DNA from: Halomicrobium urmianum
Lineage (GTDB): Archaea; Halobacteriota; Halobacteria; Halobacteriales; Haloarculaceae
DNA: 64,000 nt
Direction: 5' to 3'
NCBI RefSeq assembly: GCF_020217425.1
Contig: NZ_CP084090.1
Coordinates: forward strand, 310,001 to 374,000
Below are positions 14,064-51,620 of the stretch, one piece after another. How positions within the stretch are numbered: the stretch's first letter is position 1; every line of letters starts with the position of its first letter. A program made the position numbers and the translations under genes. The notes beneath the pieces were generated by a model, which saw nothing but the letters and a program-made list of their open reading frames with translations, did not search any database and was not told the origin of the DNA.

Positions 14064-14166
14064 GCCCCCTCGTATAGCCGTAGCGGGGATGAAAGCTTCG
14101 CTTCGCGATAACAGCACCGTAGACGGCGACTACGGGGACGCCAGCGACGGAGCGGAGTACGAGAAC

Positions 14167-14483
14167 CAGAAAGCCCCGGCTGGCTGCGGTCCCGTGAGTC
14201 GCTGTCGTCCGAAAATCTTCGATTTTCGTGATGACGAGAGACGCCGAAGGCGTCTCTCGAACCACGCGCGCTCCCTTCGGTCGCGTGCTTACGTCGTCAG
14301 GGTTCCCGCAGCCAGCCGCCCCTTTCAGTCCCGCCCAGCGTCGTTTGACCAACCGGGTACGGGCGGGACTGAAAGGGGCCGGGCGCTCAACCAGCCCGGA
14401 CGACGCAAGCACCACAGGAGCGAACGGAGTGAGTGACGAGGAGCGCAGCGAGGCCCGGCGGTTGAGCGCCCGGGGGCTTTCTG
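14167..14483. other. Cloverleaf-like structured intergenic element, copy 1
   Basis: Four helices abut with almost no unpaired bases between them. P1 is 14167-14177 with 14473-14483 (11 bp). P2 is 14178-14189 with 14306-14317 (12 bp). P3 is 14318-14336 with 14361-14379 (19 bp). P4 is 14379-14392 with 14460-14473 (about 13 bp; its outermost bases compete with the ends of P3 and P1). Base pairing is perfect in each. The P2 loop is long (14190-14305) and carries smaller hairpins. The same architecture recurs at 51269-51501 with different P2 and P4 sequences. It fills most of the 467-base gap between rpoL and the zinc-finger gene. It could be a structured RNA or a small mobile element; no protein is encoded. 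Confidence 0.8.
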
Positions 14484-14530
14484 TTTCTGCACAACGACGA
14501 CAGCAGCAAAAACAGCGGTTTCTAGCGGTC

Positions 14531-14857
14531 CTAGAGCACCGCGTAGACCATCAGGAGGCCGAAGTAGATCAGGATCAGCGCGCCCAGGGCCTTCAGTCTG
14601 AACCGTCGGATTTCGGCCTGTTCGTCGGCGAAGGCGTCGCGATAGGTCTCGACCTCCTCGTCGTCGAGGGCGTCTGGGTGGTCGATCCCGCGGTGGAGGC
14701 GGAGCCAGTCCTCGCGGGCGAACGGGCGGCCGCAGCGGTCGCAGCGATAGACCGGTTCGTCGGTGGGGACGTCGTAGTCGTGGGCGTCGGTCGCGGCGCG
14801 GTCGACGTCGGCCGGGACGTCGCGTCCACGGACGTCGGACTCGTGTGCGTCGCTCAT
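14531..14857 (-). CDS. C2H2 zinc-finger, C-terminally membrane-anchored protein
   Basis: A 108-residue protein. An acidic N terminus is followed by one classical C2H2 finger (YRCDRCGRPF...LRLHRGIDH, about residues 37-60), an acidic helical linker, and one C-terminal hydrophobic helix (ALGALILIYFGLLMVYAVL). The start codon overlaps the stop of the upstream membrane gene by ATGA (14854-14857), so translation is coupled. Related small finger-plus-helix proteins occur in haloarchaea. The role is unknown. Confidence 0.85.
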   Translation of the reverse strand: MSDAHESDVRGRDVPADVDRAATDAHDYDVPTDEPVYRCDRCGRPFAREDWLRLHRGIDHPDALDDEEVETYRDAFADEQAEIRRFRLKALGALILIYFGLLMVYAVL

Positions 14858-51184: not shown

Positions 51185-51268
51185 ACGAGTCCTCTGGTGT
51201 GGTCACGTCCAAAAGCTTGCGCTAGGAATGACTGGCGAGTGACGTCTCTGGACGAGAGCAACAGTCGA

Positions 51269-51501
51269 GAACAGCCAGAAAGTCCCAGCGTGCTACGCTC
51301 GCGTGCTTGCGTCGCCGGGGTTCGCGTAGCACGCTGCCCCTTTCAGTCCCGCCCAATGCCGGTTGACCAATCAGCGCTGGGCGGGACTGAAAGGGGCGGC
51401 CTGTTCGACGACGGCTGGCGAAGCAAGGACCGCAACGAACCAGTGAGTGAGGACCGCAGCGAGCCACCCGAGTCGAACAGGCCGGGGCTTTCTGGCTGTT
51501 C
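51269..51501. other. Cloverleaf-like structured intergenic element, copy 2
   Basis: The same four-helix arrangement as 14167-14483. P1 is 51269-51286 with 51484-51501 (18 bp, one G-T). P2 is 51287-51298 with 51324-51335 (12 bp). P3 is 51336-51354 with 51379-51397 (19 bp). P4 is 51398-51409 with 51472-51483 (12 bp). All helices abut exactly, with zero bases between them. P3 and its 24-base loop length are conserved with copy 1, while P2 and P4 are different sequences that still pair. It fills most of the 436-base gap between two divergent genes. Confidence 0.85.
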
Positions 51502-51620
51502 ACCGAAGCGGTAGAGCTGCCGAACGAACAGCACACCGATCAAGTTAGAGTTGCTAGAACGACGTTCGGTTGGACATCGCTGACAGAACCCCTAAGGCCC
51601 GTTCGTCCTAACCCCGGGAC

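Follow-up and report, generated by a model that had tools for sequence, protein, structure and literature searches.

Does the cloverleaf-shaped DNA at the two sites listed in Table 1 belong to a fixed RNA gene, to a mobile element or to an assembly artefact? Both sites lie in the window, the 64,000-nucleotide stretch of the Halomicrobium urmianum genome analysed here (contig NZ_CP084090.1, positions 310,001 to 374,000). A sequence-only reading had described two copies of one element with abutting helices in the same order. Folding of copy 2 returned four abutting helices matching that description, with a minimum free energy of -157.9 against -96.3 +/- 5.2 for shuffled sequences (z -11.9; 0 out of 200 shuffles). 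Copy 1 has the same helix order (P2 GGCTGGCTGCGG, P4 CGGGCGCTCAACC), and its P2 loop, which contains nested hairpins, measures 116 nt compared with 25 nt in copy 2. The difference of about 91 nt agrees with the roughly 90 extra bases claimed earlier.

Examination of further copies showed that the true unit is a one-hairpin module of ~125 nt, not a four-way RNA. Each module consists of GGGYGGGACTGAAAGGGGC, a variable 12-bp stem, conserved inner loops, the second stem arm and GGGGCTTTCTGGCTGTTC, and the right end after the second arm reads GGGGCTTTC(TGGCTGTTC). Two modules placed head to head give the cloverleaf shape: P3 pairs their left ends, P1 pairs their right ends, and P2 and P4 are the homologous own stems of two oppositely oriented modules. 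We counted 90 head-to-head dimers, and the centre of copy 2 is similar in length to those of other dimers; in the window species, two modules usually face each other in this way. The module also occurs singly in many genomes, and two elements (L021 and L036) are deletion derivatives with one dimer half. In one dimer version (L243, in the genus-mate G148), the centre is swapped for ~230 nt carrying further hairpins. TnpB/IS605-like right ends, CATCCCCGCNCTGAAGNNNGGGGCTTTCTCCTTG (L033, L034, L046 and L050), share GGGGCTTTC with the module right end. Module loops at L015:1680-1790, L036, L025 and copy 1 (about 14200-14285) enclose members of a further family of small hairpins, built as GTCGTTCG - AAAGACGCC hairpin - CGTGATCACG - GAGAGAGC hairpin - CGAACGAC; in L036 it is nested in itself.

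Table 1. Features of the two window copies (positions in the window; R1, covariance model)
Feature	Position	Strand	Details
Copy 2, two modules as an inverted (head-to-head) dimer	51269..51501		fold z -11.9, inverted repeats
P1, copy 2	51269-51286/51484-51501		18 bp, one T-G
P2, copy 2	51287-51298/51324-51335		12 bp
P3, copy 2	51336-51354/51379-51397		19 bp; 24-base loop contains TTGACCAA
P4, copy 2	51398-51409/51472-51483		12 bp
Module 2A: P3 left arm, P2, minus-strand right end, short loop	51269..51354	-	R1, 68 bits, E 2e-12
Centre between both left ends (P3 loop), AATGCCGGTTGACCAATCAGCGCT	51355..51378		
Module 2B: right arm of P3, P4, inner loops and GGGGCTTTCTGGCTGTTC as right end	51379..51501	+	R1, 133 bits, E 9e-26; sequence among the 40 building R1
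Module 2A variable tail	51222..51268	-	up to CTAG 51222-51225; distance 61, = 1 mod 3
Module 2B variable tail	51502..51557	+	up to CTAG 51554-51557; distance 70 from GGGG, = 1 mod 3
Copy 1, inverted dimer	14160..14490		
Module 1A, nested hairpins in loop	14160..14336	-	R1, 84 bits, E 1e-15
Module 1B	14361..14490	+	R1, 106 bits, E 3e-20
Module 1B tail	14491..14525	+	up to CTAG 14522-14525; distance 49

The covariation of P2 and P4 first noticed between the two window copies extends to 40 diverse modules from many genera. In their alignment, 96.4% of cells were paired and 23 out of 31 pairs showed two-sided change. Double-changed cells numbered 272, against at most 56 when the alignment was slid, and the covariation score was 0.598, compared with 0.167 for shuffled and at most 0.081 for slid alignments. 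Across our collection of 257 non-redundant units, the stems conform loosely to a consensus, and almost all pair types turn up at almost all positions; at stem position 8, 195 out of 215 distinct stems have T-A. For 60 diverse units, RNAalifold predicted a single long hairpin in which the purine loops are conserved and additional pairs covary, among them an inner pair that switches between C-G and G-C and is formed in all 60 units. The inner loops are invariant over module families. By inspection, covariation between genera extends to the basal helix (GAAAG/CTTTC, CAAAG/CTTTG and CGAAG/CTTCG).

Mismatches within the stems were distributed unequally between the strands. Read in each module's own sense, the 215 distinct stems contained 82 G-U and 20 A-C pairs. 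The excess was seen both in dimer halves (65 to 18), whose two members occupy opposite strands, and in other units (23 to 2). More than half of the excess sits in the last two loop-side pairs, and the remaining ten pairs give 37 to 15. Since G-U exceeds A-C in the module's own sense, selection acts on one strand per unit, as RNA or single-stranded DNA, implying that its target would be neither a duplex cruciform nor a one-strand cloverleaf. The idea of a single cloverleaf RNA was rejected, as the excess follows each half's own sense.

The covariance model detected the module in 98 out of 146 Halobacteriales genomes, representing 40 out of 56 genera. When it was run on 148 genomes sampled across the phylum, the 19 positives were all Halobacteriales, with none outside the order. 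rRNA matches and named loci identify the order as Halobacteriales. An exact left-arm pattern was present in 66 of the 146 order genomes, and its reversed control in 0. The genome of the window species contains 22 modules at E <= 1e-6, copy 2 as a BLAST query against it matched 84 times, spread over several dozen places, and several genomes have at least 24 module candidates each. Because the own-genome model matches lie at many separate sites and homologues occur across the order, the two loci do not owe their similarity to an assembly artefact. Searches of viral contigs and of phages gave 0 matches each, and six haloarchaeal records matched in the plasmid search. No Rfam family matched at its gathering score, and the literature search found papers on PATE/SMR, IS6 and REPIN elements but none describing this module. 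The module family is real, order-wide, undescribed and structured. Of the earlier proposal of an undescribed system, the covariation and the recurrence stand, as does novelty with respect to Rfam; the single cloverleaf RNA does not. A different repeat, ~85 nt long (ATACGG..TGTAG..TTTACC / GGTAAA..CTACA..CCGTAT and ATACTRCCGGCTGTAA..), whose stems vary from copy to copy, was seen in genus-mates (L114, L115, L117 and L118) and at L032.

Comparison of orthologous sites bore on whether the element moves. For three own-genome copies traced by their right flank (L012, L006 and L016), the orthologous flanks in the genus-mates G148 and G149 show no module motifs, and most sites examined differ between species, with no empty site clean enough for exact insertion boundaries. 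At the L015 locus, G148 has a different, larger version. The divergent intergenic site of copy 2 carries an element in the own genome and in both genus-mates, where the stems are quite different, and none in G059 or G146. Near the L016 ortholog, both genus-mates have tandem repeats, GGCAACTGATCC.., right after a gene stop codon (L247 and L248).

In other species, eight dimers and a number of partial copies carry terminal inverted repeats that match an IS6 element. Perfect 8-bp duplications adjoin GGYNNTGTTYAG-type ends at L182, L190, L214, L063, L067 and L227, all in other species, and L186, L188 and L189 have 9-bp duplications. With shuffled flank pairings and an equally loose end criterion, 8-bp matches occurred in 7 out of 444 cases, against 6 out of 90 observed, and 9-bp matches in 0 out of 444, against 3 out of 90. 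Because 8-bp matches arise in shuffled flanks too, the evidential weight falls on the matched ends. IS6 elements generate 8-bp duplications, and halobacterial members measure 700-750 bp (PMC7986276). The own genome contains autonomous insertion sequences of IS6 type, PF13610 elements of ~690-697 bp (L263-L266) with perfect 8-bp duplications and terminal GGTCGTGTTTAGTTA, as in the copies with IS6-type ends; these ends differ from those of the own-genome module elements. We found no open reading frame inside copies having IS6-type ends, and no autonomous copy with a loop longer than 200 nt (loops of 11-200 nt, in a 550-nt search window). Scanning the window copies detected neither IS6-type ends nor a target duplication; their flanks end at CTAG, whose interpretation as a 4-bp target duplication was unsupported by the scan. 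An apparent preference of copies for one strand of the G074 chromosome was a counting artefact that vanished with the fuller set of copies. The family is mobile at least in part via IS6-type ends. Presence and absence within the genus, together with the 8-bp duplications in other species, favour a mobile element over a fixed RNA gene, although the module itself resembles a structured RNA in its behaviour.

Taking these results together, we consider it fairly probable that this is a haloarchaeal non-autonomous mobile element made from structured, RNA-like single-strand modules of ~125 nt. In this reading, every module is an extended hairpin with imperfections that runs outward from the middle of the element. 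Its base would be the invariant helix GAAAG/CTTTC; a G-rich internal loop comes next, then a helix of 12-13 bp that stays paired although its sequence is free to vary and, further in, covarying helices between conserved purine-rich loops, with the variable tail outside. IS6-family transposases may move such elements in trans, at least in the IS6-ended lineages, and the module would act as RNA, or as one strand of single-stranded DNA, on its own sense strand. Judged by sequence, it is probably active as RNA. In one genus (G004, G033, G044 and G052), solo modules follow a conserved left domain of ~110 nt (..GAGGCTGGGGAGGCGTGAGG..), and a TATA-like box starts 13-22 nt before this domain in about half of 20 anchorable copies; upstream TATA boxes are found mainly in one genus. 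Putative RNAs from these solo modules would have the orientation that the G-U excess predicts. An undescribed structured repeat with covariation this strong would add a major class of archaeal RNA or transposon, and our work contributes a covariance model and a strand test, together with species rich in copies, such as Haloarcula rara and Halonotius roseus, as candidates for RNA-seq.

The closest competitor, which we regard as rather unlikely, is a single-stranded-DNA hairpin element of the IS200/IS605, PATE or REPIN type, in which a Y1 (HUH) transposase would recognise the module as a hairpin on one DNA strand and inverted pairs would be REPIN-like. The one-strand asymmetry also fits single-stranded DNA, and head-to-head pairs do resemble REPINs. 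PATEs, as described in PMC3119063, are abundant in Haloquadratum, with near-terminal palindromes and no target duplication, and the own genome has TnpB-type right ends that contain GGGGCTTTC, as the module does. However, that common motif comprises nine bases only, the module has numerous covarying helices and is about four times as long as a REP, loops of 11-200 nt revealed no autonomous copy, and the copies with IS6-type ends and 8-bp duplications speak against such an element.

Two further explanations were weighed. Long palindromes without function could be kept perfect by template-switch repair of quasi-palindromes while their sequence drifts, which would account for stems whose sequences change freely without loss of pairing, including at a single orthologous site. 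Such repair predicts G-T and A-C to be equally rare on both strands, so the observed asymmetry counts against it; it should also erase conserved internal mismatches, and the inner loops are invariant over families. We therefore hold this explanation to be improbable. A fixed cloverleaf RNA gene working as one transcript agrees with the perfect folds of both copies and with the shared occupation of the copy 2 site by three genomes of the genus. It is nevertheless largely refuted and very improbable, given the many genomes with single modules only, the G-U excess tracking each half's own sense, the differences between species at most examined sites and the one-half deletion derivatives.

The tail outside each right end mostly differs between copies and has a triplet register. 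In 55 CTAG-ending tails, every third base is typically a pyrimidine (C 46, T 28, A 18 and G 7%). Among 189 tails without near-duplicates, 162 showed the pyrimidine excess and 19 the reverse; at 108-138 nt out, the counts were 91 to 88. CTAG stands at a distance of 1 mod 3 in 55 out of 72 cases, and the triplet pattern stops there. CTAG is the stop codon of the neighbouring gene in copy 1, L005, L006 and L025, among others, but this holds for some copies and not all, and as a general explanation it was rejected. Near copy 1, a long reading frame on the minus strand has its stop codon (CTC TAG) in a second CTAG (14531-14534). We also rejected a coding peptide, as no frame was kept through the loops and third-base G+C was not raised; synonymous fractions in the tails were only slightly raised in frame 0. 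As guides, the tails had no targets: the own genome gave self matches only (next best E 0.08), and phages gave none. Tandem right-end arrays of 2-6 units of 45-61 nt, often 45, 48, 54 or 57 nt and also 50, 53 or 56 nt, occur at L073, L076, L090, L092, L144, L233, L280 and L283 and look like tiny repeat-spacer arrays. No system known to us predicts the regularity of the tails. A bolder and doubtful possibility is that the module represents a new abundant class of haloarchaeal non-coding RNA, with a structured body and a copy-specific 3' tail whose triplet phase is fixed (every third base a pyrimidine and hardly ever G, up to CTAG) and which would show variable sequence to a partner; MITEs would only spread the module, and the tandem right-end arrays would add tails.

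Among known systems, IS6-family MITEs resemble copies of the module from several other species, which have the GGYNNTGTTYAG-type terminal inverted repeat and 8-bp duplications; no transposase gene was seen in module loops of 11-200 nt, and the own genome has IS6 copies with such ends, though not with the ends of its own module elements. MITEs of this family differ in that the window copies have no detected ends, the core is a covarying hairpin unrelated to IS6 sequence, and the module also occurs singly and with other flanks. For REPINs, or REP doublets with RAYT, two inverted hairpin units likewise form a mobile-looking unit, and singles occur. REPs are nearly uniform within a genome, whereas the module, at ~125 nt, has hypervariable stems. 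REPs are also shorter, at 20-40 bp (PMC3733652), and the REPIN foot GTAG/CGTC is absent from the module, where the consensus foot is GGGYGGGACTGAAAG / CTTTCTGGCTGTT. The PATEs and SMR-A of Haloquadratum are similarly short, abundant, non-coding, palindromic and often nested in one another, as described in PMC3119063. Compared by that description, PATEs and SMRs lack target duplications; this trait is violated in the IS6-ended copies of the module, whereas no duplication was detected for the window copies. Covariation, found in the module, is not mentioned in the passages compared. Finally, like the omega-RNA (reRNA) of TnpB, the module is a structured scaffold that ends in GGGGCTTTC and is followed by a variable 3' tail; unlike that RNA, it has no adjacent tnpB in the loops examined, and its tails match nothing elsewhere in the own genome or in phages.
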